DNA of 40,731 nucleotides from a bacterium (GTDB lineage Bacteria > Bacillota_I > Bacilli_A > Acholeplasmatales > JAEDCM01): assembly GCA_024694145.1 (NCBI GenBank), contig JAILKD010000085.1:1-40731 (forward strand), read 5' to 3'. Made by a program: the position numbers and the translations under genes. Of the stretch, positions 6,381 to 21,706 are shown one piece after another (the stretch's first letter is position 1; every line of letters begins with the position of its first letter). The notes under the pieces are model-generated. The model was not told the origin of the DNA and made no database searches. It worked only from the letters and a program-made list of their open reading frames with translations.

Positions 6381-6389
6381 TATCTAAAG

Positions 6390-6414
6390 ACTCACTCGAA
6401 AGGGTGAGTTTTTA
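6390..6414 (+). terminator. Intrinsic terminator of the ABC exporter operon
   Basis: The stem ACTCACTC/GGGTGAGT (6390-6397 with 6402-6409, one wobble pair) closes a GAAA tetraloop and is followed by TTTTT. It lies 9 bases after the exporter stop codon. Confidence 0.9.
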
Positions 6415-6488: not shown

Positions 6489-6518
6489 TTGAATATATAT
6501 AAATATATATTATATAAT
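6489..6518 (+). promoter_or_regulatory. Predicted promoter of the cyclase/FecR/LRR operon
   Basis: TTGAAT (6489-6494), an 18-base spacer of alternating A and T, and TATAAT (6513-6518). The predicted start near 6525 leaves a leader of about 50 bases before the ATG at 6579. Confidence 0.6.
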
Positions 6519-6578: not shown

Positions 6579-8408
6579 ATGAAAACAAAACTTATTAAAT
6601 TCAAATTAAAGAATTTGATATTTGCATTGATATTTATGGTGCTAGCACTAATATTATCAGCAGTATCTAAATCTTTTAAACCATTTAATGGACTTGATAA
6701 CAAACTAACAGATAGTGCATTTCAACGTAAAAGAAGTGCAGATAAAGAAATATGGATTGTTGGTATAGATGAAGAAACCATTGAAAAATATGATGCATAT
6801 AATCCAAAAGAATATAGGGAATATTTTGCAGAAATATTAAATATGTGGAATGAAAATAGCTTTACTCCTAGCGCTATAGGTTTTGATATTATATTCAATA
6901 AAACTTATGACTGTGATGAAGTTGATCTAAAATTAAAAGATGCACTTAGAAAGCATAATGTAGTTTTAGGTGTAAATGGTATGGCTAGAAATGCTGCTCC
7001 ATATGGATTGTCAAATACTATTTATGAAGGAACTAAAACTATAGGATTTGTTGATGCAGTTACTGATAGTGATGAAGCAATAAGAAGAGCATATCTAAAA
7101 GGAGATAATTATGATAGCTTAGCTTATTCACTTTATTCAATGTATCAAACAAATTCTGGAAATGAAGTTAAAGACTATAAAAATAAAAAAGCATATTACT
7201 TTAATTATTATGCTTCTCCAGAATTAAATTATACACCTGATGGTAAAGTAGCAAACGTTATGTCAGGATTTAATTATATTTCTTTAGCTGATTTAATAGA
7301 CGATGTAAAAAACGGATATAATCAAAGAATTAGAAGTAATGATGCAATTATTTTATTTGGTTCTTATGCAAGTGCAGTAGACACAGGTTTGTCAAACGAT
7401 ATATATAATTCTCCAATAGGTGAGATGTTTGGAATAGAAGTACAATGTAATGTAATTCAATCATTAATGCATGATGATTTGTACTTACCAATTAGTACTG
7501 CAGGCTATACATTAATTAACATGCTTGTTATTTTAGTAGTTGTATTATTAATGGTAAGCTTAGCATTCTATTTAGGAATTGTAGCTTTCGTATTAAGCAT
7601 TGGAATAGAATTCTTAATAATGATTATTTCACATTCAGCTGGTAAATATTATTTTATAAGCATGCCAGTATTCTTATTAGTACTTGCTTTCATAATTATG
7701 ATTACACTTCATTACTACAATGAATATATACATAAAAAAGAAGTTATAGGTACATTTAAACGTTATATTTCACCAGATGTTGCAGAACAACTTGTAGATA
7801 AAAATGAAGATGCAATGGCTTTAGGTGGTAGAAAAAGAAATGTTGCTTGTCTATTTGTAGATATTAGAGGATTTACAAAGATGAGTGAGGAATTAACTCC
7901 AGAAGAAGTTGTTGATATTTTAAATGGATACTTAGAGATGGCAACAAATCAAGTATTTAGATTTGGTGGAATGGTTGATAAATTTATTGGAGACTGTGTA
8001 ATGGCAATATTCAACGCTCCAGTAGATCTTGATGATTATATTTATAAAGCAGTATGTGCTGCATACGGAATTGTTAAAGAAGGACAAAAAATATGCGATG
8101 CAGTTATGGAAAAATATCATAAGAAGTTAGAATTTGGTGTTGGTGTTCACTATGGTGATGCTGTAATTGGTAATATTGGTAGTAAAACTAGAATGGATTT
8201 TACAGCTATAGGAGACACAGTAAATACAGCAAGTAGAATTGAAGCAAGTGCTGGTGGTAGCCAAGTATTAATTTCAAGTTATGTTTATGAAGTATTAAAG
8301 GATCGAATTAAAGTTACTGATGCAGGAGATAGAATGTTTAAAAATAAAAAAGAACCTATTAAATGTTATGAAGTAATTGAAATAGAAGGATATAAAGGGG
8401 AGGAATAG
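6579..8408 (+). CDS. CHASE2-domain membrane adenylate cyclase (class III)
   Basis: A 609-residue protein with an N-terminal membrane segment (about 13-30), an extracytoplasmic CHASE2 sensor domain (about 35-300), three closely spaced transmembrane helices (about 308-390) and a cytoplasmic class III nucleotide cyclase domain (about 415-600). Catalytic residues appear complete: metal-binding Asp428 (FVDIRGF) and Asp472 (IGDCVMAIF), adenine-selecting Lys468 and Asp540 (MDFTAIGD), and transition-state Asn549 and Arg553 (NTASRIE). The Lys/Asp pair points to ATP as substrate and cAMP as product. AAAGG upstream of 6579 is a modest ribosome binding site. Two bases separate it from the FecR gene, so they are coupled. 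CHASE2 cyclases linked to FecR domains are known elsewhere, mostly in Proteobacteria and Cyanobacteria; the ligand is unknown. Confidence 0.93.
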   Translation: MKTKLIKFKLKNLIFALIFMVLALILSAVSKSFKPFNGLDNKLTDSAFQRKRSADKEIWIVGIDEETIEKYDAYNPKEYREYFAEILNMWNENSFTPSAIGFDIIFNKTYDCDEVDLKLKDALRKHNVVLGVNGMARNAAPYGLSNTIYEGTKTIGFVDAVTDSDEAIRRAYLKGDNYDSLAYSLYSMYQTNSGNEVKDYKNKKAYYFNYYASPELNYTPDGKVANVMSGFNYISLADLIDDVKNGYNQRIRSNDAIILFGSYASAVDTGLSNDIYNSPIGEMFGIEVQCNVIQSLMHDDLYLPISTAGYTLINMLVILVVVLLMVSLAFYLGIVAFVLSIGIEFLIMIISHSAGKYYFISMPVFLLVLAFIIMITLHYYNEYIHKKEVIGTFKRYISPDVAEQLVDKNEDAMALGGRKRNVACLFVDIRGFTKMSEELTPEEVVDILNGYLEMATNQVFRFGGMVDKFIGDCVMAIFNAPVDLDDYIYKAVCAAYGIVKEGQKICDAVMEKYHKKLEFGVGVHYGDAVIGNIGSKTRMDFTAIGDTVNTASRIEASAGGSQVLISSYVYEVLKDRIKVTDAGDRMFKNKKEPIKCYEVIEIEGYKGEE

Positions 8409-8410
8409 TT

Positions 8411-11176
8411 ATGTTAAAAAAGAACCTATTTAAGAGTTTAATAACCTCTATAATTTTAGTGTTTGCTGTTATATTCTTAGTTTCATGTGGTAAAAAGAGT
8501 ACACCTACAACTAAACCAGATGATACTACCAATAACAATGGTGGAGGAAACAACAATAATCAATTCCTAAGTACTGCTAGAAGTATAAAAGTAGTACAAG
8601 TTGATGGGGGCGCAACTGTTACTGATTCAAAAACAACAACAAATTGTTTTAAGGGTATGAATCTTTATGATGGTGATACACTTACAGTAAATGCTGATTC
8701 AACTTTAGTAATTAAATTTGATGATGATAAATATGTTTATCTTGGAGAAAAAACAATAATAAACATAAAAAGTGAAGGAAAAGATAAATATAAAACAAAT
8801 GTTTATGTTACTCAAGGTGTAGTTTTAGCTGAAATTCAAAAGAAATTAGATGAGGATGAAGAATTCTTCTTATCAAGTAATAACTCAGTTATGGCTGTTC
8901 GTGGTACTATATTTGGACTTAATGTAGAAAATAAAGGAGAAAATTTAGTTCAAACATATTCAGTATATAAAGGCGTTACTGAATTATACGTATTTGATAA
9001 GCTAAATGATAAATTAATTAGCGGAAAGATTAGTGATATTTCTGATGCTAAATATGAATTAATTATTCCTAAATCTCATATTATTGATGAGACTGAAATA
9101 AATAATGCAGTTGGAGAGTGGTTAGATAAAGGTGCATCAACATTTGATGATGCAAATGATGCTAATGATAAATTAGATGAAGTAGCTATTACAGTATCTA
9201 AACCAACAAAAGCAGATTTTGAAAAGGTAATTAATGTAGTAGAAACTGATGTTAATTATTCAGATATTGAATATACTTCTAAAGGTTTCTTTGGAGAATA
9301 TGATGGAGCTGCTCATATGGTAGAAATTACTCCAACAACTGAAGGAGCAACAGTAAGCTATTCACTAGATGGAATAAATTATCAAGCAGAAAATGATTTT
9401 GAATTCTATTCACCAGGCAGCTATAGAGTTTACTACAAAATTGAATGTGAAGGTTATGATACAAAAGAAGATTTTGAAGTAATCTATATTACAAGACCTA
9501 ATATAGCTATTGAAAGTGATTATCTAGATTATGATAGTACTGCAAAAATGTCTATTCTTGACATTTCAACATTAAGTAGTACTGATTTTAATAGATTTAA
9601 TGGTGTAGCAGTAAATAAAGTATTTTCAAATCAAAAGTTCTATATTAACGGAACTGAAGTAGTAGCAAACAATATAACAGTTAATTATAGTAAATTAATT
9701 GATGGTTATATTGAGCTTGTTGATGGAATAAATACTTTAAATGTAAGTTTTGAGTTTGATACTTATACACTAAATGTTGATGTTTATTTCTTATATAGTG
9801 AGACTAGAGATGATTCTGGTTACGCAATTGGAATTTCTGATACAACAAATATTACTGAATTAAGCAATAACGTTTATAATGTTAGCCCAGATGCTACTTA
9901 TTTAACAGGTGAAGGAGTTGGAGCTTATAGATTTGAAGGTAATGGTTTATTACAAGCATTTGGTCTGGATGTTCTTGATTTAACTACAATGTATATTAAT
10001 TATCCTAAAGATGTAATTGATACTGATATAGCAAATTATGATGCAACTAGTACCAATGATAGTGGTAGTGATGTAAGATTATTAGAAGATGCTGCATATA
10101 AATTTGTAGAGATTAATTTCTTAGTATTCCCTAATGCGACTACAAAAGGATTTAATGAATCAATATTTATTCATGTTTCAAATACAATTCCTGATGTATA
10201 TCCATCGTATAGCATTAATAAAACAAGTTATGCTTATAGCCCAACTAAAAATCCAAATGGTGCTAAGATGGACTTTATTACAGTTTCAGGAGTTGAGACT
10301 GTTAAGTATTCACTTGATGGAACAAACTTCCAAGATGAGTTATATATAATTGAAGCTGGAGTTCATAAAGTTTACTATGAAATTGTGGCTAGCCCTAACT
10401 CAAATGACTTTAATGTTATAGATTATGAATTTATAAATGTTACTGTTGGAGAAGGAGAAATTACATTTGATAATAAGATGTTTATAACTAGTCCAGTTCA
10501 TATATTATCTAATGATAACGGAAATAATATTCACTGGAATGTTGGTTCAACTGAATTTGTAACATATGAAGGAAATGTTGAATCACAAGATGGAAGAGTT
10601 ATTACTTCCCTTATGGATGCTTATACTGTTTATTCAAATATGATTAAAAATTCAGTGTTCTATGATTCAATTACTAAAGAAGTGCTTGATGCAACTGTAA
10701 CAGTTACACCTAAAAAAGATAATAGTGCTAACTTCAACTACACAGTAGAAGTAGAAGGATATGATACTTTAAGTGGAACAGTTAGATTTGAAAATTCAGA
10801 ACTTGGAGAATTAAGCAACTTAAATGAAAGCCAACCTGAATCTGATTATTTCACAGTTACACTTCCAGATGATTATAGCATTAGCTTAAGTGAAATACCT
10901 CAAGCTATTCCATCAAGAATTAGTTCAACTTTGGAAAATGAATTTATAAATTATCAAACTTATTATTCAATAGATGGTGGTAAAACTTGGTCAACTGTAG
11001 CACCTAAGATTACTAATGCTGGAGAATATGATGCTTATATTTTATATTGTTTTGTAGATAATGGTAATGATGCAACAACATTAGTAGATGGAGAAATTAC
11101 AAGTATTAAACATAGTAGTTTAGCTGCTAATGGAAACTTTATTATTGATATAGAACATATCATTGTTACTGAGTAA
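8411..11176 (+). CDS. FecR-domain surface lipoprotein with Ig-like modules
   Basis: A 921-residue predicted lipoprotein: hydrophobic signal followed by lipobox LVSC with Cys26, then a Thr/Asn/Gly-rich linker. A FecR-type domain spans about 57-180 (DGDTLTVNADSTLVIKF, then VMAVRGTIFGLNV). The rest is beta-rich and includes three modules carrying YSLDG or YSIDG motifs at about residues 316, 632 and 850, each followed by a 'G.Y.VYY'-like strand, resembling YDG/MBG-type Ig-like repeats. The start follows GGGGAGGA inside the end of the cyclase gene. In characterised systems FecR domains relay surface signals; here, tightly coupled to a CHASE2 cyclase, it may modulate that sensor from the outside. 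It could also be a plain adhesin. Its length is well above typical FecR proteins. Confidence 0.8.
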   Translation: MLKKNLFKSLITSIILVFAVIFLVSCGKKSTPTTKPDDTTNNNGGGNNNNQFLSTARSIKVVQVDGGATVTDSKTTTNCFKGMNLYDGDTLTVNADSTLVIKFDDDKYVYLGEKTIINIKSEGKDKYKTNVYVTQGVVLAEIQKKLDEDEEFFLSSNNSVMAVRGTIFGLNVENKGENLVQTYSVYKGVTELYVFDKLNDKLISGKISDISDAKYELIIPKSHIIDETEINNAVGEWLDKGASTFDDANDANDKLDEVAITVSKPTKADFEKVINVVETDVNYSDIEYTSKGFFGEYDGAAHMVEITPTTEGATVSYSLDGINYQAENDFEFYSPGSYRVYYKIECEGYDTKEDFEVIYITRPNIAIESDYLDYDSTAKMSILDISTLSSTDFNRFNGVAVNKVFSNQKFYINGTEVVANNITVNYSKLIDGYIELVDGINTLNVSFEFDTYTLNVDVYFLYSETRDDSGYAIGISDTTNITELSNNVYNVSPDATYLTGEGVGAYRFEGNGLLQAFGLDVLDLTTMYINYPKDVIDTDIANYDATSTNDSGSDVRLLEDAAYKFVEINFLVFPNATTKGFNESIFIHVSNTIPDVYPSYSINKTSYAYSPTKNPNGAKMDFITVSGVETVKYSLDGTNFQDELYIIEAGVHKVYYEIVASPNSNDFNVIDYEFINVTVGEGEITFDNKMFITSPVHILSNDNGNNIHWNVGSTEFVTYEGNVESQDGRVITSLMDAYTVYSNMIKNSVFYDSITKEVLDATVTVTPKKDNSANFNYTVEVEGYDTLSGTVRFENSELGELSNLNESQPESDYFTVTLPDDYSISLSEIPQAIPSRISSTLENEFINYQTYYSIDGGKTWSTVAPKITNAGEYDAYILYCFVDNGNDATTLVDGEITSIKHSSLAANGNFIIDIEHIIVTE

Positions 11177-11187
11177 GGAGGCAAATT

Positions 11188-14100
11188 ATGAAAAAGAAAA
11201 TATTATTAACTTTAGCAATGGTTGCCACTTTTACTATGGCAGCATGTGGAAATAAAGCAATTGAACCAACTACAACAACAGATAATACAACAACTACAAA
11301 TGATGTTGTAGTAGTAGATGAACATGATAGAGGACAATTAGATAATTCTATTCCTAATATTGAATTACCAGATGTTTTATTCAATAACAATGGTAATAAT
11401 AATGAAAAACCAGATGATGTTGAACAAACATTAGATGTTTCAGATGAATCTATATCACTAGGTAATGGCGATTATGTAGAAACTAATGCTGGATCTGGTC
11501 AATCAGAAATGATTGGAAATGAAAGATTCTTAACAGCAACAGTAAATATCGGTTATGATTTTGAAGGTTGGTGGTTAGGGGATAAATTATTATCATTACA
11601 ATTACAATATAAATGTAATGAAGGTGAAAATGGTGTTGAAGCAAAATTTAGCATAAAAGAAGCATTTAAACCATTTGAATTTACTTCAGATGATGTTAAT
11701 TGTACTATTACAGGTTTAAAAGAAGATTATCCTAAAGAGTTAGTTATTCCTGAAGGAGTAACTAGTATTGCTGATAAAGCTTTTTATAAGTCTAATATAG
11801 TAGTTTTAACATTACCTTCATCCTTAAAAGAAATAGGTGATGAGGCATTTAAAAATACATTATTGAATTCATTGACTATAAATAATATAGATTTAACTTT
11901 AGGTGAAAATATCGCAGAAGAATCAAATTTATATGAAGTGTTTGTGCCTGATAAAACAGCTAATTTAGATAGTCTATGCTCTGCATTTGGAGTTGATCCA
12001 GATAGACTTTGGCTTAGAAATATTGAAGAAGGTCCAAGTGATTTAATAGTTGTTGGTGATTATTCATTCTACTACGATACTGATTATGAGGAATGGTTTT
12101 TAGATAAATATGTAGGTGATGAAAAAGATGTAGTATTACCTAGCGCTACAACAGAAATACCAAGTTATTGTGTTGGATATTATGCTTTTTCAAATTCTGA
12201 TACAGATACTGGTTTACCTATTGAATCCATAACTTTTTCAGATGCTGTAACAGGAATTGATTATGGTGCATTTTATAATTGCGATGATTTAAAAGAAGTT
12301 GTAATATCTGATAGTGTGACTTATATTGGCTCTTATGCTTTTTATGGTTGTGATTCTTTAGAAAAAGTTACAATTGGTAATAGTGTTGAAGAAATATGTA
12401 GTGATGCATTCGGATATACAAATATAAAAAATATAATTATACCTGATAGTGTTACTGATATATATGAAGATTCATTTGAATATTGTGAGAATTTGTTACA
12501 AGTTACTCTTGGAAAAAAGGTAGATAATATAAATGACGATGCATTCTATGGATGCTATAATATGAAAACATTATATAACTATTCAGAATTAGATATAGAA
12601 AAAGGAAGTTCTGATTATGGTTATGTAGGTTATTATGTAGCTAATATTATTACTAGTGAAAATGAACAAGAACTAGATGAAGACAAAAAAGATTTCATTT
12701 GGCATATTGATGAAAATACCGTAATTATTGATGCATATTTAGGAAATAGTAAGGATGTTGTAATTCCTACATTTGAATATAAAGATGATGAAGGAAAACA
12801 TTATTATGATATTGTACTAGGCAGCAATTTATTTAATGATAATAAAATACTTGAAACTATTACTTTAAATGAATATATAACTGAAATAGGATATCATACA
12901 TTCTATTCATGTAGTAATTTAAAGAGTATCAATACTCTTAATGTAGATGAAATTGGTGAAGAAGCATTCAGTTATTGCAAAAATTTAGAAATAGCAACAT
13001 TAACAAATGTAACAGAAATAGGTTATAAGGCATTTTATGATTGCGAAAAATTAACAACAGTTGTATCTCCAAAACTTGAAGAAATTGGTTCTCATGCATT
13101 CTATATATGCTATAAATTAGAATCAATTGATACAACTAATGTTTTAACAATCAGTCCTAGTACATTCTATCAATGTTATAATCTAAAAAATATTGATTTA
13201 ACAAATGTTACAAGCGTTGGCTCATACGCATTTATTGAATGTAGAAGTTTAGAAAATGCAATAATGAGTAATGTTACAAGTATTGGTTCTTATGCATTTA
13301 GTAAGTGTTATGCATTAAGAAATGTTACTTTCCCTAAGGTAACTTCTATCGAAGGATATGCATTTGAAAAATGCTATAGCATTATACAAATTACAATTCC
13401 TTCAACTATGACATCTAGTGGATTAGAAGAAAATGCATTTATATATTGCTTAAACTTAGCAGAAGTAATTAATGAATCAACTGCATTTACTATTGGTGCA
13501 ACACAAGTTGGTCCTAATTACAGCTATATTACAAATTATTCAAGACATGTAATTAATCCAAGTGATGAGAATAAAACATCTATAATTACATATGATACCG
13601 TAAATAACATGATTTATTATGAAGACCCATGGAGTTATAACAATAGAGGAAAAGTATTTGCAGGAGTTATTGATAGAACTGCTAAAAAGGTAGTAATTCC
13701 AAGTGGATTTGATACTATTATGCGTGGTTCATTATGTGGATGCAATATGGAAGAATTAGAAATTAATACTGATTCTTTCAATAAGCATTTAGGATATTAT
13801 TATGGTTTAGAAGAATCTTATAATTATTATGGTTTTGAAGGGGATTATTCTTCAAATGATCAAAGAGTTCCAAAGAGTTTAAAAGTTATAAGACTTGGTA
13901 GTGAAATGACTGCATTACCAAAGAATGCATTCTATAGATGTAATTCAATAGAAGATATATATTTTAATAGCGGTTTAGAAATTGGTGAAGATGCATTTAA
14001 AGAAATTAGCATCAAAAATGTTTATGTAGCTTTAAGTGATTGGTGCAATATGGATTTTGCTAATGATGATGCCACTCCAATAAATAAATCTAATAAGAAT

Positions 14101-17100
14101 GTTAATATTTATTTCAAAAATGGTGAAGATTATGAAGAATTAGATGTTATAGAAATTCCTGAAACTATTGCTGGAATCAATAATAAACTATTTAATTATA
14201 TGAAGATGACAAAGGTAATATTACATAGTGATATTACAATTATAGGTGAATATGCTTTCTGTGGTTGTACAAATCTAAAAGAAATAAATATTCCTGATTC
14301 TGTCACTTATATTGGGTCATATGCATTTAGCATGACAAAAATAAAGAGTATTGTTATACCTGAAAATGTTACTGAAATTAAAGATGGAACATTTGAAAAT
14401 TGTACTAACTTAATAAGTGTTACAATTAATGGAAATGTTACATTAATTGGCAATTACGCATTTAGTAATTGCAAATTGTTATATAACATTAATATTCCAA
14501 CTTCTTTAGCAAGCCTAGGAGTATATGCATTCTATAATTGTGAAAACTTAACAGCTATACTATTAAAAGAAACAAGTGTAACAACATTTGGTGAACAATT
14601 ATTTGGTGGATGTATAAACCTTGAAGAAATTACATTCCCTGCAGGATTAACTGCAATAGATACAACAACATTTGATAAGTGTGATAAATTAACATTTACT
14701 ACTTTTGATAATGGATGTTATTTTGGTACTGAAGCTAATCCATATAAGTGGTTGATAAAGGCTAGAGCAGCACAAATATTTGAATGTGTAGTTCACCCTG
14801 ATTGTGAAAAAATATATGCTGGAGCATTCAAGAGATGCGTTAATTTAAGAAAAATAGTTATTCCAGCTACATGTACTGATTATGATGGATGTTTATATGG
14901 CTTAACTAATTTACAACATATAGAATTCCCTTATACAAGTACTAATGCATTTGGACCAGCCATTTTAGGTGTAAGCAATAGTAATGTAACAAATAAATTA
15001 AAGACTATTGTAATTAATGGTGGAACAACTATTCCTGCTTCTGCATTTGCAGGATTATCACAACTTACTAAAATAACTTTAAACGCAGATATAACAACTA
15101 TTGGAGAAAATGCATTCTTAGATTGTTATAATGCAGATATCGTATTACCTGAAACAATTATGACAATTGGTAATAACGCATTTGAAAATTCAGGAATAAA
15201 AGAATATACAGTTAATACAACAGATACATCATTCAGTCTTGGAAATTATGCCTTCAAGAATTGCATTAAATTAACAAGTGTAAATTTATATAACTTAAAT
15301 AGAGGATATGGTGCTTATTACAATTATTCTGTTGGTACATTCTATGGATGTACAGCACTTACAACTGTTACTCTTCCAAATAATGGAAAATGTATCAATT
15401 CATATATGTTCTATGGATGTACATCATTAGAGAGCATAACAATGCAATCAACTATAGACCAAATTAACCCATACGCATTTATGAATTCTGGTTTAAAATC
15501 AATTACTTGGCCAAGTACAGGTGGTGTATATATTAAAGTATATAAAGGTGCATTTAGTAATACTAAGATTACAACTCTTAATATTCCAAGCCATGTATTA
15601 ATACAAAACGGAAATGATAGTTCTAATACACAAAATCCAACTGTTGGTGCATTTGAAGGATGCTTAAATTTAACAACAGTGATAATTAATTATAATATGC
15701 TTTATAACTCAACTTATGGTGGAAAATATGCATTTAGAGGATGTCGTAATCTTGAAACAGTTACTTATTCTGCAAGTGATTCAAAAATTGATGAATATAC
15801 ATTTGCAAATTGTACAAAAATAAAGAGTTTTGATTTTAGTAAGATTACTGAAATTCGTAATTATGCATTTATGAATACAGCACTTGAATCAATTACTCTT
15901 GCTAGTGGCATTGTTTTAAAAGAAAATGCATTCCTTAATAGTACAAATTTAGAAGAAGTTACATTTAATGGATCTATGTCATTTACACCTGCTTCAACAA
16001 TAAGCAGTCAAGTATATGGTGTATTTGCTGGTTGTACATCTTTAACAACAGTTAATTTAACTGCTAGTGTAGCAATTCCTAATTTTATGTTTATGAATTG
16101 TGAATCTTTAACAACTGTTAATTTTGCTAATGTAAAATCAATTGGAGATTATGCATTTAAGAATACTGGATTTATTAGTGTTACTTTACCATCAACTATT
16201 ACATCAGTTGGTAGAGAAGCATTCTGCGAATGTAAGAATCTAACAGAAGTTGATTTAGAGTGTACTGTGGATAGTTATAAAATATTTGGTGATTGTGTAT
16301 CACTAACAGATGTAACAATAGGTGAAGAAGTTACAAGCCTAGCTTCTGGATTATTCTATGGTTGTAAATCATTAGCAGAAATAGAAATACCAGAATCTGT
16401 TATATCTATTAAATCTAACGCATTAGAAGATTGTGGATTTGTTGAACTAGTAATACCTTCATCAGTTACATCTATAGGAAACTTATCATTAGCTTATAAT
16501 AAGAAGTTAGAAAAAGTAACATTTAATTGTGCATTTACTGGAGATGGTTATATTCTATATAATTGTCCAGTTTTAAAAGAAGTAGTATTTAATGGAAATA
16601 TAACTTCTGTTCCTGGATATATTTTTCAAGATGATACTAAATTAACTACAGTAACTCTTCCTGATACAGTAACAATTATATATGGTTATGCATTTGATGG
16701 ATGTAGTTCGCTTAAATCTATCAATATTCCATCAAGTCTTACAACAATTGGACCTAGCGCATTTAAGAATTGTTTATTATTAAAATCAATTATTTTACCA
16801 GAAGTTCTTGAGTCAATAGAAACTGAGGCATTTAGTGGATGCTATGGACTTATTGAAGTATATAATTTATCAACTACTTTAACAGTAACTATTGGTTCAG
16901 ATGAAAATGGTTGTGTTGCTAAATATGCAAAAGCAGTTCATACATCATTAACTGAGCCATCAGCAATTATTACTGATGAAAATGGTTATGTATTCTTATA
17001 TGATGGAGAAAAAGGATATTTAATTGGATATGTTGGTACTTCACGTTGCTTAGATTTACCTACTTCATTTACTTATAATGAAACAACTATTAGTGAATAT

Positions 17101-18054
17101 GAAATTGCTTCATATGCTTTCTATCAAAATAAAGATATTTATTCAATTAAGATTCCAGCAAGCGTAACAGCTATTGGAGAAAAAGCATTCACAGATTGTT
17201 ATCACTTAGTTGAAATTTATAACTTATCTAACTTAGATATAAAGGCAAGTAGACCTTCATTAAATTATGGAAAGAGTAATGGAGATCTTGGATATTTTGC
17301 ATATATAGTTCATACTTCATATGAAGATGAATCAGTAGTTGTATTCGAAGGCGATTACGGATTTATGTATGTTGATGGAATAGGCTATATTGTAGGTTAT
17401 CTAGGAAATAGTACAGAACTTGTATTACCTACTTCATTTACTTATAATGAAAATACAATAACAGATTTATATGTTCATGCTTACGGATTTGCAAATAGTA
17501 ATATTACTTCATTAATAGTACCTGATGGAATAGTTAAATTTGGACAATATGCTTTTGCTTATAATCATTCATTAAAGCATGTTGAGGTTTCTAATACAGT
17601 AGTTAATAATGATTATCATCCATTTTATGATGACTATAATGTAGAATATTATAAAGGTTCAGCTTATATGGCTTATTATATAGGAAATCCATATCAAAGA
17701 AGTTCTACAAGTTATTCATATAATGATAGTCTAACAACTGTTATCATTACAAGCGGTAGATCAATAAGTAGTTATGCTTTCTGTAATAATAGTTCTTTAA
17801 AAACAATAGTTATTCCTGTTTCTGTAACAAGTATAGGAACTAGTTCTGGAAATGTATTCTATAATGTTCCTCTAGAAAAGATTTTCTATGAAGGAACAAG
17901 TGAACAATTCTTTAATATTAGTGGTTTATGGGTTAACGGTAATGATACAGCTATAAGTAATGCTACAAAATATTTCTATAGTGAAGAAGCTCCTACTGAC
18001 ACAGAAAATAATTACTGGCATTATGTAGATGGAGTTATAACTATTTGGGAATAA
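11188..18054 (+). CDS. Giant BspA-like leucine-rich-repeat surface lipoprotein
   Basis: A 2288-residue protein with a lipoprotein signal (lipobox MAAC, Cys20), a Thr/Asp-rich linker to about 60, an InlB-B-repeat-like segment near 100-155 (GYDFEGWW) and then many LRR_5 (BspA/TpLRR) repeats to about 2250. Typical repeats read 'IGSYAFYGCDSLEKVTI' and 'LPSTITSVGREAFCECKNL', about 23 residues each. LRR blocks are broken by short beta modules at about 291, 500, 797, 974, 1170, 1926 and 2049. There is no LPXTG or C-terminal membrane anchor, so lipid attachment is the likely anchor. AGGAGG precedes the start, 11 bases after the FecR gene. BspA-like proteins bind host matrix proteins or other cells; in this operon it may also act as a ligand-binding partner of the cyclase. 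The last two modules share a 28-base DNA repeat. Confidence 0.9.
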   Translation: MKKKILLTLAMVATFTMAACGNKAIEPTTTTDNTTTTNDVVVVDEHDRGQLDNSIPNIELPDVLFNNNGNNNEKPDDVEQTLDVSDESISLGNGDYVETNAGSGQSEMIGNERFLTATVNIGYDFEGWWLGDKLLSLQLQYKCNEGENGVEAKFSIKEAFKPFEFTSDDVNCTITGLKEDYPKELVIPEGVTSIADKAFYKSNIVVLTLPSSLKEIGDEAFKNTLLNSLTINNIDLTLGENIAEESNLYEVFVPDKTANLDSLCSAFGVDPDRLWLRNIEEGPSDLIVVGDYSFYYDTDYEEWFLDKYVGDEKDVVLPSATTEIPSYCVGYYAFSNSDTDTGLPIESITFSDAVTGIDYGAFYNCDDLKEVVISDSVTYIGSYAFYGCDSLEKVTIGNSVEEICSDAFGYTNIKNIIIPDSVTDIYEDSFEYCENLLQVTLGKKVDNINDDAFYGCYNMKTLYNYSELDIEKGSSDYGYVGYYVANIITSENEQELDEDKKDFIWHIDENTVIIDAYLGNSKDVVIPTFEYKDDEGKHYYDIVLGSNLFNDNKILETITLNEYITEIGYHTFYSCSNLKSINTLNVDEIGEEAFSYCKNLEIATLTNVTEIGYKAFYDCEKLTTVVSPKLEEIGSHAFYICYKLESIDTTNVLTISPSTFYQCYNLKNIDLTNVTSVGSYAFIECRSLENAIMSNVTSIGSYAFSKCYALRNVTFPKVTSIEGYAFEKCYSIIQITIPSTMTSSGLEENAFIYCLNLAEVINESTAFTIGATQVGPNYSYITNYSRHVINPSDENKTSIITYDTVNNMIYYEDPWSYNNRGKVFAGVIDRTAKKVVIPSGFDTIMRGSLCGCNMEELEINTDSFNKHLGYYYGLEESYNYYGFEGDYSSNDQRVPKSLKVIRLGSEMTALPKNAFYRCNSIEDIYFNSGLEIGEDAFKEISIKNVYVALSDWCNMDFANDDATPINKSNKNVNIYFKNGEDYEELDVIEIPETIAGINNKLFNYMKMTKVILHSDITIIGEYAFCGCTNLKEINIPDSVTYIGSYAFSMTKIKSIVIPENVTEIKDGTFENCTNLISVTINGNVTLIGNYAFSNCKLLYNINIPTSLASLGVYAFYNCENLTAILLKETSVTTFGEQLFGGCINLEEITFPAGLTAIDTTTFDKCDKLTFTTFDNGCYFGTEANPYKWLIKARAAQIFECVVHPDCEKIYAGAFKRCVNLRKIVIPATCTDYDGCLYGLTNLQHIEFPYTSTNAFGPAILGVSNSNVTNKLKTIVINGGTTIPASAFAGLSQLTKITLNADITTIGENAFLDCYNADIVLPETIMTIGNNAFENSGIKEYTVNTTDTSFSLGNYAFKNCIKLTSVNLYNLNRGYGAYYNYSVGTFYGCTALTTVTLPNNGKCINSYMFYGCTSLESITMQSTIDQINPYAFMNSGLKSITWPSTGGVYIKVYKGAFSNTKITTLNIPSHVLIQNGNDSSNTQNPTVGAFEGCLNLTTVIINYNMLYNSTYGGKYAFRGCRNLETVTYSASDSKIDEYTFANCTKIKSFDFSKITEIRNYAFMNTALESITLASGIVLKENAFLNSTNLEEVTFNGSMSFTPASTISSQVYGVFAGCTSLTTVNLTASVAIPNFMFMNCESLTTVNFANVKSIGDYAFKNTGFISVTLPSTITSVGREAFCECKNLTEVDLECTVDSYKIFGDCVSLTDVTIGEEVTSLASGLFYGCKSLAEIEIPESVISIKSNALEDCGFVELVIPSSVTSIGNLSLAYNKKLEKVTFNCAFTGDGYILYNCPVLKEVVFNGNITSVPGYIFQDDTKLTTVTLPDTVTIIYGYAFDGCSSLKSINIPSSLTTIGPSAFKNCLLLKSIILPEVLESIETEAFSGCYGLIEVYNLSTTLTVTIGSDENGCVAKYAKAVHTSLTEPSAIITDENGYVFLYDGEKGYLIGYVGTSRCLDLPTSFTYNETTISEYEIASYAFYQNKDIYSIKIPASVTAIGEKAFTDCYHLVEIYNLSNLDIKASRPSLNYGKSNGDLGYFAYIVHTSYEDESVVVFEGDYGFMYVDGIGYIVGYLGNSTELVLPTSFTYNENTITDLYVHAYGFANSNITSLIVPDGIVKFGQYAFAYNHSLKHVEVSNTVVNNDYHPFYDDYNVEYYKGSAYMAYYIGNPYQRSSTSYSYNDSLTTVIITSGRSISSYAFCNNSSLKTIVIPVSVTSIGTSSGNVFYNVPLEKIFYEGTSEQFFNISGLWVNGNDTAISNATKYFYSEEAPTDTENNYWHYVDGVITIWE
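17056..17452 (+). repeat. 28-base direct repeat inside the LRR gene
   Basis: Two identical 28-base copies, starting TTACCTACTTCATTTAC, lie at 17056-17083 and 17425-17452, 369 bases (123 codons) apart. Both encode the LPTSFTYNE strand of the C-terminal 'GYLIGYVG' modules. The spacing is a whole number of codons, consistent with an in-frame duplication of one module. Confidence 0.75.
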
Positions 18055-18061
18055 AAAAAAT

Positions 18062-18090
18062 AAAAGCTCATCTTTCGGGATGAGTTTTTT
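18062..18090 (+). terminator. Intrinsic terminator of the cyclase operon
   Basis: The stem CTCATC/GATGAG (18067-18072 with 18079-18084) is extended by wobble pairs and flanking A/T pairs, has a TTCG-containing loop, and is followed by six T. It lies just after the LRR gene. Confidence 0.88.
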
Positions 18091-18110
18091 GTTTAATAAT
18101 CTATATATAA

Positions 18111-18143
18111 AAAAGATTCGGAATTATTTATCCGAATCTTTTT
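18111..18143 (-). terminator. Terminator of the XRE gene, possibly bidirectional
   Basis: A long hairpin with arms AAAGATTCGGA and TCCGAATCTTT encloses an 8-base loop. It is flanked by A and T runs on both sides, so it can act on either strand. The stop codon of the minus-strand XRE gene (18124-18126) is in the loop and its last codons form one arm. Confidence 0.8.
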
Positions 18144-18826: not shown

Positions 18827-18904
18827 AATAAAGTGTATAGTTATTTATAATAGTAGTTTATTGTATATTCTAGATAATAAAATAAAATATAAGTGGTGAG
18901 GGAT

Positions 18905-19678
18905 ATGAAGACTTTCTTTTATAGTGATGAAGTAAATGATGATTTTGCTTTTGCATATATAAAGAAGCAAAGAGAAATTAAAGACAACTATAAATACATA
19001 AACAAAAACATATTTTATTTGTTTTTAGAATTTATAGTTTATAGAATCATTATGACTTTAGTTGCATATATCACATGTTTAAAACGTCACATCAGAATTA
19101 AGAACAAGAAAATAGTAAAAAAAGAAAAGGGAAGATATTTTATATATGGAAACCATACACAAGTTCCTGGCGATGCATATATTCCAAATATAATAGGGTT
19201 CCCAAGAAAATCATTTATTGTTGTTAATCCTGATTCATTAAGTATAAAGGGTACAGCATGGTTTATAAAAATGAGTGGAGCTCTTCCAGTTCCAACTCAT
19301 ATAACAGGATTAAAGAATTTTATTGATGCAATGGATGAAAGAGTAAATAATAAGCATCCAATAGTAATTTATCCTGAGGCACATTTGTGGCCATACTATA
19401 CAAAGATTAGACCATATAAGTCTACATCTTTTAGGTATCCGATAAAACTTGATAAGCCAGCATATTGTTTTACAACAACTTATCAAAAAAGAAAATTTTC
19501 TAAAAAACCAAAGATTACAGTTTATGTTGATGGACCATTCTATTACAACAAAGAGCTAAAAGGAAAAGCTCAAGAAGTTGATTTAAGAGATAGAATTTAT
19601 GACTGTATGGTTAATCGTAGTAAAAATTCAAATTACGAATATATCAAATATTATAAAAGGGTTGATAAGAATGATTAA
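18905..19678 (+). CDS. PlsC-like acyltransferase with altered motif I
   Basis: A 257-residue protein of the lysophospholipid acyltransferase (PlsC) fold, with a hydrophobic segment near 36-58 for membrane contact. Motif I reads GNHTQVPGD: His84 and Asp90 are separated by five residues where the family has four (HX4D). Motif III reads YPEAHLW where PlsC has PEG. The same region aligns with the second acyltransferase of the operon (21708-22460) at YPE..W and K.RP.K, so the two are paralogues. ATG 18905 is chosen because GGTGA (18895-18899) stands 5 bases upstream; a GTG at 18893 is an alternative. It overlaps the GT8 gene by 8 bases. It may acylate a glycolipid precursor or have lost the classical reaction. 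Confidence 0.75.
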   Translation: MKTFFYSDEVNDDFAFAYIKKQREIKDNYKYINKNIFYLFLEFIVYRIIMTLVAYITCLKRHIRIKNKKIVKKEKGRYFIYGNHTQVPGDAYIPNIIGFPRKSFIVVNPDSLSIKGTAWFIKMSGALPVPTHITGLKNFIDAMDERVNNKHPIVIYPEAHLWPYYTKIRPYKSTSFRYPIKLDKPAYCFTTTYQKRKFSKKPKITVYVDGPFYYNKELKGKAQEVDLRDRIYDCMVNRSKNSNYEYIKYYKRVDKND

Positions 19679-20474
19679 TATTATGTACTCAGGAAATGAT
19701 AGAGTATTTAAAGGCATTCTACTTTCTGCTCTATCAATACTTGAAAATACGAGTGAAGCATTAAGCATTAATATTTTAACAATGGAAATTGATGGTTTTA
19801 AACCAATTAATAATGATATGGTTAAAATACTTGATAATGTTTTAAAACAAAAGAATAAGAATAGTTATGCGAAACTATATGATGTAACAAATATATTTAT
19901 TGAAGAAATGAAAGATTCAAAGAATTTAAATAATTTTTATACACCATATTGTCTTCTTAGACTATTTGCAGATTTACTTGATCTACCTAGTAAAATTTTA
20001 TATTTGGATACAGATACAATGGTTAATAAAGATTTATCTGAATTCTTTAACATTGATATATCTAATTATGAATTCGCTGGCGTGGTAGATAGATTAGGTA
20101 GATGGTTTATAGGACTTAATTACATAAATTCAGGTGTATTACTTTTAAACTTAGATAAGATAAGAGAAACAAAGTTATTTAGTAACACTAGAAATCTTGT
20201 TAAAAATAAGAAGATGGCTTTTCCTGATCAAAGTGCCTTAAATAAATTAAAACAATTTTATTTAAAAGTACCATCAATTTATAACAATCAAGGAAAACCT
20301 AAAAAAAATACAGTAATTAAGCATTTCTGTAAATCAATTAGATTCCTACCGTTTTATCATACAATTAATGTAAAACAGTGGGATGTAATAAATGTTCATA
20401 AGAAATTAAAAATACATATTTATGATAATTTATTTAAAAAATATGAAGAAATAATGGAGGAAAAACTATGTTAG
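19671..20474 (+). CDS. Family 8 glycosyltransferase
   Basis: A 267-residue GT-A-fold enzyme of family GT8. The N-terminus MINIMYSGNDRVFKGILLSA matches the sugar-nucleotide-binding start of the family, and the metal-binding DXD motif is D113-T-D115 (LYLDTDTMVNKDL). The segment INSGVLLLNLDKIRE is the typical central GT8 motif. The C-terminal HXXGXXKPW motif is degraded to HFCKSIRF, keeping the His. ATG 19671 overlaps the upstream gene by 8 bases; the only binding site is a weak AAAGG, which suggests translational coupling. Like LgtC/GspA relatives it probably transfers a sugar to a glycolipid or protein at the inner membrane face. Donor and acceptor are unknown. Confidence 0.88.
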   Translation: MINIMYSGNDRVFKGILLSALSILENTSEALSINILTMEIDGFKPINNDMVKILDNVLKQKNKNSYAKLYDVTNIFIEEMKDSKNLNNFYTPYCLLRLFADLLDLPSKILYLDTDTMVNKDLSEFFNIDISNYEFAGVVDRLGRWFIGLNYINSGVLLLNLDKIRETKLFSNTRNLVKNKKMAFPDQSALNKLKQFYLKVPSIYNNQGKPKKNTVIKHFCKSIRFLPFYHTINVKQWDVINVHKKLKIHIYDNLFKKYEEIMEEKLC

Positions 20475-21706
20475 CAGAAATTATGAAGGTCGCATTTTAT
20501 GTTTTTGTAGTATTTCTATTATTTTGTTTAATTAATTATATGCCAAGAATGTTCGCTTGGTTCTATGGTTTTAAAAAACAAAAGCATTTAGTTAAGAATA
20601 AAGATAATAAAATAGCAATAGTAGTACCAGCAAGAAATGAATCAATGGTTATTGGCACACTATTTGATTCAATAAAAAAACAAACTTATAAAAACTTTGA
20701 CACATTTGTAATTGTTAAAGATCCAAAAGATCAAACAATCGAAATGGCAAAAGAAATAGGTGCAATTCCACTTGTTTGTGAAAATCAAACTAAAAAAAGT
20801 GATGCCCTAGATTATGCATTAAAGAAAATAATGAAAGATGGGTCTTATGATTCAGCATTTATTATTGATGCTGATTGTTATATGGATCCTAAATGTATGG
20901 AAGAATTAAATAATGCTTTATCTAGTGGTAGACAAATTATACAAGTAAAAAAGCGTGTTAAAAACTTCTATATGAAACAAAAACATGCCAACTCTATCTG
21001 GAGTAGCTGTAATGGCTTAATATGGACAATTATTGATGATTTAGGGAATAAATATAAAAGTGCTAAAGGTATAACTAATATGCTTATTGGTACAGGTATT
21101 ATGATTAGAATGGATGTTATTAATGAACTTAATGGTTGGCCATATAATGAAACTCTAACAGAAGATATAGAGTTTATGAATGATGCAGCTATTAAGGGTT
21201 ATTCAACATTATATTATGAACATGCAATTATTTACTTAGAGGAATCTACTAGTCTAAAAGTAACTAATAAAAGAAGAACTAGATGGATGGATGGTGTAAT
21301 TAATAGTAAAAGAATTTATAATGATAGATTAAAAAATGCAAATGAAAAGGATAAATATTATGTAACAGCTCTATCACCTTGTTTCTTATTTGTTGGAACA
21401 TGCTTATTATATTCATTATTAAATTTAATATTTGGAGCAACTCTATTTATTATTGGTAATGATTTATGGACTGAATGTTTCTTATTAAGTTTAGTATCTC
21501 TAGGTGTTATTTATGTGGCATTCTTTATATTAACATTATTTATATTAATGGTAGGTCATATAAAAAGACCTTGGTATGAAAAAATATTGCTTTTATTCAT
21601 TCATCCATTATTCTATATGGGATATATTAGAATTTGTTTAAAGGTATATTTAGGATTAACATCTAATAAATGGGAAGTAATTGATAGAGTAAAATTCGAG
21701 GGATAA
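20468..21706 (+). CDS. Membrane-bound family 2 glycosyltransferase
   Basis: A 412-residue GT2 enzyme with one N-terminal transmembrane helix (about 5-27), a GT-A catalytic domain (about 45-275) and three C-terminal helices (about 295-395). The domain begins IAIVVPARNES and has D134-A-D136 (DXD) and the TED motif at 231-233. The position of the processive motif QxxRW is RxxRW here (R269, R272, W273), so Gln is replaced. The topology resembles BcsA/NdvB-like and ceramide-glucosyltransferase-like enzymes. GGAGGA precedes the ATG, which overlaps the GT8 gene by 7 bases. It probably builds or extends the sugar head of a membrane glycolipid with its neighbours. Confidence 0.87.
   Translation: MLAEIMKVAFYVFVVFLLFCLINYMPRMFAWFYGFKKQKHLVKNKDNKIAIVVPARNESMVIGTLFDSIKKQTYKNFDTFVIVKDPKDQTIEMAKEIGAIPLVCENQTKKSDALDYALKKIMKDGSYDSAFIIDADCYMDPKCMEELNNALSSGRQIIQVKKRVKNFYMKQKHANSIWSSCNGLIWTIIDDLGNKYKSAKGITNMLIGTGIMIRMDVINELNGWPYNETLTEDIEFMNDAAIKGYSTLYYEHAIIYLEESTSLKVTNKRRTRWMDGVINSKRIYNDRLKNANEKDKYYVTALSPCFLFVGTCLLYSLLNLIFGATLFIIGNDLWTECFLLSLVSLGVIYVAFFILTLFILMVGHIKRPWYEKILLLFIHPLFYMGYIRICLKVYLGLTSNKWEVIDRVKFEG

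Follow-up and report, generated by a model that had tools for sequence, protein, structure and literature searches.

A CHASE2 adenylyl cyclase encoded with a two-part FecR lipoprotein and a giant leucine-rich repeat lipoprotein: a possible exchangeable surface-to-cAMP signalling device in wall-less bacteria

The three genes and their products

The window analysed here (the whole stretch of 40,731 nucleotides of contig JAILKD010000085.1) belongs to a MAG-like genome of 1.57 Mb in 101 contigs. It contains three genes that encode a CHASE2 adenylyl cyclase, a FecR lipoprotein and an LRR_5 lipoprotein, all on the + strand and separated by gaps of 2 and 11 bases; the coordinates of the open reading frames confirm the array described in a first-pass annotation of the same DNA.

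A terminator-like hairpin (6385..6414, + strand) closes the ABC-transporter operon that lies upstream. It is followed by a candidate promoter, TTGAAT-18-TATAAT (6489..6518, +), identified by its match to the consensus only (10 of 12 positions). The region holds fewer promoter-like sites than shuffled sequences (85 versus 111), so that this match is no evidence by itself: the promoter claimed earlier is present as a consensus match, but not above shuffled expectation. The terminator that had been claimed after the trio is better defined. A clear hairpin with a T-run stands immediately 3' of the LRR gene (18062..18089, +), similar hairpins are found 3' of the LRR gene in most orthologous loci, and a second terminator-like hairpin (18110..18143, +) overlaps the 3' end of a convergent HTH gene. 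The hairpin scan detects no terminator-like site at either junction inside the trio. The Shine–Dalgarno sequence of the LRR gene coincides in part with the stop codon of fecR (TAAGGAGG) or adjoins it, here and in most orthologs, which is what is expected of coupled genes of a single operon. Further downstream (18893-21706), open reading frames resemble, by eye, an acyltransferase and glycosyltransferases, and may form a glycolipid cluster.

The first gene (6579..8408, +) encodes a class III adenylyl cyclase of 609 amino acids, identified from the open reading frame, Pfam and an alignment of catalytic residues. The CHASE2 sensor domain (residues 24-323, 6648..7547, +; Pfam CHASE2 3.7e-33) is followed by the cyclase catalytic domain (residues 418-598, 7830..8372, +; Pfam Guanylate_cyc 3e-25). 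In class III cyclases, two Asp residues bind the metals, a Lys/Thr pair selects the base, and an Asn and an Arg stabilize the transition state. All six residues (D428, K468, D472, T542, N549 and R553) are present when the protein is aligned to CyaB/CyaC (3r5g and 1wc0), and they are invariant in the set A1. The enzyme is thus of the CyaB/CyaC type, with Thr at the base-selecting position, and since the three pairs are all kept, the cytoplasmic catalytic domain is likely to synthesize cAMP.

The predicted topology consists of one N-terminal transmembrane (TM) helix, the CHASE2 domain on the outside, hydrophobic helices at about 307-353 and 362-393, and then the cytoplasmic cyclase; the helices are taken partly from a low-confidence model and the TM-like segments from the sequence. 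This arrangement, in which the sensor is flanked by an N-terminal TM helix and by a membrane segment preceding the output domain, is that of CHASE2 receptors, and it agrees with the outward-facing CHASE2 proposed earlier. With a mean pLDDT of 54, the AlphaFold model of the cyclase is too weak for a fold search.

The second gene (8411..11176, +) encodes a FecR-domain protein of 921 amino acids (Pfam FecR 8.3e-08), which starts with a signal helix and the lipobox LVSC at Cys26, as the first-pass annotation had it. A lipobox is found in 4 of 9 orthologs; the five others have an N-terminal TM helix instead, and it is therefore anchoring rather than the lipid that is kept. The protein is a lipoprotein in the window, but a lipid anchor is not essential in the family. 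The conserved FecR domain (residues 56-205, 8576..9025, +; 69% mean identity among nine orthologs) precedes a variable beta-sandwich tail (approximately residues 260-921, 9188..11173, +), which shares the phylogeny of the LRR gene. The structure model (pLDDT 75) matches only strings of Ig, FN3 and cadherin domains with low TM-scores, so the modelled shape is that of beads on a string, with no specific relative. We rejected a FecIRA-type anti-sigma role, considering that the protein has a lipoprotein or TM anchor at its N-terminus and no Pfam anti-sigma domain; no sigma-factor gene lies between the genes of the trio or adjoins them in the window.

The third gene (11188..18054, +) encodes a giant BspA-type lipoprotein of 2288 amino acids, with a Pfam LRR_5 match (3e-282) in 18 stretches. 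The proposed lipobox at Cys20 stands: it reads MAAC, which a strict lipobox pattern misses because M is at position -3, and the Cys is invariant in nine orthologs, most of which have LASC, LVSC or LVAC. The tandem LRR_5 repeats and the export signal make the product a BspA-type LRR surface protein. LRR_5 matches are abundant in these genomes (30-69 per genome).

Conservation of the trio and related operons

Records named Acholeplasmatales, Bacillales and Anaeroplasma contain the trio, and several of them come from goat or rumen samples; the genomes compared are mostly MAGs, but the trio is also present in the isolate Anaeroplasma bactoclasticum ATCC 27112, which NCBI places in the Mollicutes. 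The PF00905 transpeptidase is absent from all eight genomes searched, versus 10 of 14 control genomes that have it, which fits organisms that have no peptidoglycan wall. From a host that is single-membrane and wall-less, we infer that both lipoproteins are exposed directly at the cell surface.

CHASE2 occurs in 13 of the 160 genomes of the order, in two types of cyclase. The window-type cyclases form one clade (support 100/100), and the order cyclase, FecR, LRR is kept in the nine complete loci of this clade, with -8 to 22 and 6 to 13 bases between the genes; no window-type cyclase was found alone or with unrelated neighbours, a result in favour of the first-pass reading. The flanks largely differ: among 69 flanking open reading frames, seven families recur, most of them in two loci. 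Two incomplete loci add to this picture. In G145, the end of one contig carries LRR followed by the cyclase, and the end of another carries FecR followed by LRR; these pieces may be a single rearranged cluster broken within repeats. G141 contributes a single truncated gene of the window type, at the end of a contig. Over the order, FecR is found in 12 of the 13 genomes with CHASE2 versus 4 of the 147 others (Fisher 6e-14, kinship ignored). Only two genera, both of one order, have the trio, and the nine loci therefore represent few independent events.

The paralogous clade of CHASE2 cyclases is encoded with FecR, in the absence of LRR. The second CHASE2 cyclase of the window genome (G000:C41; L006, L029) belongs to an operon that codes successively for a TPR protein (a weak match), the cyclase, a TIM protein, an HD/GAF protein, a small membrane protein and two FecR proteins. 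In G147 and G420, the order is cyclase, TIM, HD, FecR, also with no LRR gene. TIM and HD genes stand upstream of the trio in G129 and G128 (HD/GAF directly upstream in G129, nearby in G128), and link the two types of cyclase. Outside the order, CHASE2 is found in only two genomes of a class-wide sample of 395, G420 and G432; in the latter, the cyclase is followed by HD up to the contig end. No LRR gene is seen in the stretches fetched from these two genomes. The HD protein of the paralogous operon may act on c-di-GMP or on cAMP, since every genome with a cyclase (G000 and 13 relatives) has 5-30 GGDEF matches. This repertoire of c-di-GMP proteins is unexpectedly rich for wall-less Mollicutes.

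Two FecR genes that are not accompanied by a cyclase, L117 (G000:C88) and L119 (G001:C77), are followed by the gene of a giant lipoprotein with InlB-type repeats and DUF6273. It seems that giant surface lipoproteins are general partners of FecR.

A candidate effector of cAMP is encoded elsewhere in the window genome (G000:C94:3387-7494, L031), in an operon that codes for an RCK channel-like protein, a PKA-R-like cNMP-binding protein and a fusion of lipase-like and D-Ala-D-Ala-ligase parts. The cNMP-binding protein is stand-alone and has 160 residues; the ligase fusion is alongside in most loci. Its best PDB relatives include the regulatory domains of PKA and PKG. The channel is related to CASTOR and MthK and has an unusual filter-like motif, GNDY. 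Close relatives of the cNMP-binding protein (57-85% identity) are found in 9 of 14 cyclase genomes and in none of 146 others. These nine genomes all have a strong cyclase match, and the phosphate-binding cassette (G83 E84 M85 A86; K92 R93 S94 A95 T96) is kept in all nine proteins. In A. bactoclasticum and G145, a TIM gene typical of the paralogous cyclase operon adjoins the channel/cNMP operon. The cNMP-binding protein is missing from five genomes that have the trio, and G053, which is 98% complete and has the trio, contains no PF00027 protein at all, so that this protein cannot be the effector everywhere, and another one may take that role. The cNMP-binding protein is thus a possible cAMP effector in part of the lineage only.

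A FecR tail that follows the LRR protein

The mean identities among the nine loci are 69% for the FecR domain and 66% for CHASE2, versus 42% for the FecR tail and 38% for the LRR protein. The distances of the tail and of the LRR protein correlate (rho 0.79, permutation p 0.001), and neither correlates with those of the cyclase or of the FecR domain in these loci. The trees of the tail and of the LRR protein agree on nearly every well-supported branch. Both reject the sister pairs of the cyclase tree, G053 with G128 and G130 with G143 (AU p 1e-5 or far lower), and conversely the cyclase rejects the LRR pairs (AU p 0.009). In G053 the switch point can be located: identity to G128 is high through the cyclase and the FecR domain and then drops at about residue 226 of FecR, and from this point on identity to G146 goes up, reaching 72-100% per window of comparison. 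The mosaic of G053 could be an assembly chimera; G130 gives a second discordance. The same genome, G053, has a second FecR-LRR pair directly behind the first (cyclase-FecR-LRR-FecR-LRR, with a single cyclase).

The shared trees, the discordance of the cyclase and the switch point in G053 suggest that tail and LRR protein move as one cassette; as judged from the sequences, they resemble a sensor cassette that can be exchanged on a constant core of FecR domain, CHASE2 and cyclase. The FecR protein has two parts, a FecR domain conserved like CHASE2 and an Ig-like tail that is on the tree of the LRR protein. In functional terms, it is simplest to suppose that the FecR domain works with CHASE2, and the tail with the LRR protein. 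The relay position that the first-pass annotation gave to FecR fits these observations, in that the protein looks like the middle element. The tail and the LRR gene are contiguous on the DNA, so that a purely recombinational reading is possible: shared ancestry follows from the exchange of any contiguous stretch of DNA, and is no proof of contact alone.

A putative modular receptor cyclase

We argue that the trio is most likely one exchangeable device that signals from the outside to the inside. In the mechanism that we propose, and that we hold to be probable with some reserve, the trio makes up a receptor adenylyl cyclase built of modules, in a bacterium that has no wall. Held at the outside of the single membrane, the giant LRR lipoprotein would bind a ligand, probably a protein or a cell surface; the host or cell ligand of the first-pass annotation is conjectural. 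The long tail of FecR would touch or match the LRR protein, as their shared phylogeny suggests, and the constant FecR domain would touch CHASE2, in view of their conserved pairing and of the CHASE2/FecR clusters described elsewhere. CHASE2 would then alter the synthesis of cAMP by the cytoplasmic class III domain, whose catalytic residues are in place. The half that consists of the tail and the LRR protein would be replaceable between strains, so that a single cyclase core could receive new sensors. In a subset of organisms, cAMP would probably act on the small PKA-R-like protein encoded beside the RCK channel. The more specific proposal, in which a plug-in FecR-tail/LRR cassette is swapped between species and cAMP gates a split RCK-channel/PKA-R-like protein in part of the lineage, is one that we put forward tentatively, as rather doubtful.

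It may be that FecR and the cyclase are the sensor, for instance of envelope or ion stress as in Campylobacterota, and that the LRR protein is a co-expressed adhesin, an output or a cargo. The paralogous operons of G000, G147 and G420, which have no LRR gene, are consistent with this hypothesis, and so are genes that precede the trio in L009, L025 and L026 and by eye resemble genes for ion transport. However, the LRR gene follows FecR in every complete locus, it is the FecR tail and not the cyclase that shares its phylogeny, and the FecR-LRR pair duplicates together, whereas a mere cargo does not need a matched FecR tail; we regard this explanation as unlikely. Another hypothesis is that the conserved 5' part (the cyclase and the FecR domain) is the homology used for shuffling surface antigens, with no link to signalling. 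The position of the breakpoint, inside fecR and just past the well-conserved stretch, and the large number of LRR_5 matches per genome would fit such a process; yet it would sometimes split the tail from the LRR gene, which the agreement between their trees argues against, and a cyclase that looks active heads the operon in every complete locus. This makes recombination of antigen genes quite improbable. Last, LRR_5 proteins are so common in these genomes that three unrelated genes might be neighbours by chance, but the order and the tight spacing kept in 9 of 9 complete loci despite largely different flanks lead us to reject this idea, which has next to no probability.

The first-pass annotation noted that CHASE2 and FecR domains occur together in other phyla, and the pairing of a CHASE2 cyclase with FecR is already known: a cluster of CHASE2-adenylyl cyclase, phosphodiesterase, FecR and TPR proteins has been described as a signalling cluster in Campylobacterota (PMC9239204). 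The window operon is similar in that its CHASE2 cyclase is encoded with an exported FecR-domain protein, but it has neither the TPR nor the phosphodiesterase gene; the C41 paralog, with its TPR and HD-type genes, resembles that cluster. The giant LRR lipoprotein, the single-membrane, wall-less host and the exchangeable FecR-tail/LRR half are all unlike that cluster. In the BiofilmReg operon of Burkholderia (PMC5192318), which codes for a response regulator, a LysM-FecR protein and a CHASE2 histidine kinase, an exported FecR-domain protein is also encoded beside a CHASE2 receptor; there, on the contrary, the output is a histidine kinase with its response regulator rather than cAMP, and there is no LRR protein. 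In Sinorhizobium meliloti, NsrA passes an outside protein signal to the CHASE2 cyclases CyaD1, CyaD2 and CyaK, which raises cAMP (PMC13001267, PMC5498481). The proposed device would resemble this system, in which a separate surface protein feeds a CHASE2 cyclase, but NsrA is an outer-membrane beta-barrel, the effector is the CRP-family regulator Clr, and no FecR-LRR pair is described. As to the LRR protein itself, its LRR_5 repeats, export signal and lipobox are those of BspA-type surface proteins, and what sets it apart is its genetic link with FecR and a receptor cyclase. In the literature that we searched, no paper describes an LRR partner, mentions receptor cyclases in Mollicutes or reports that a FecR tail is exchanged together with a receptor. 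The novelty therefore lies in the giant LRR protein, in the occurrence in Mollicutes and in the FecR architecture with its constant core and apparently exchangeable sensor.

The signal of CHASE2 and the role of its FecR partners are open questions in the field. The division of FecR into a constant and an exchanged part gives a testable rule, according to which the FecR domain faces CHASE2 and the tail is turned to the surface receptor. The observations also suggest surface-driven cAMP signalling in Mollicutes, of which we found no description in the literature searched. The operon is carried by the cultured A. bactoclasticum ATCC 27112, which makes this idea open to experiment.
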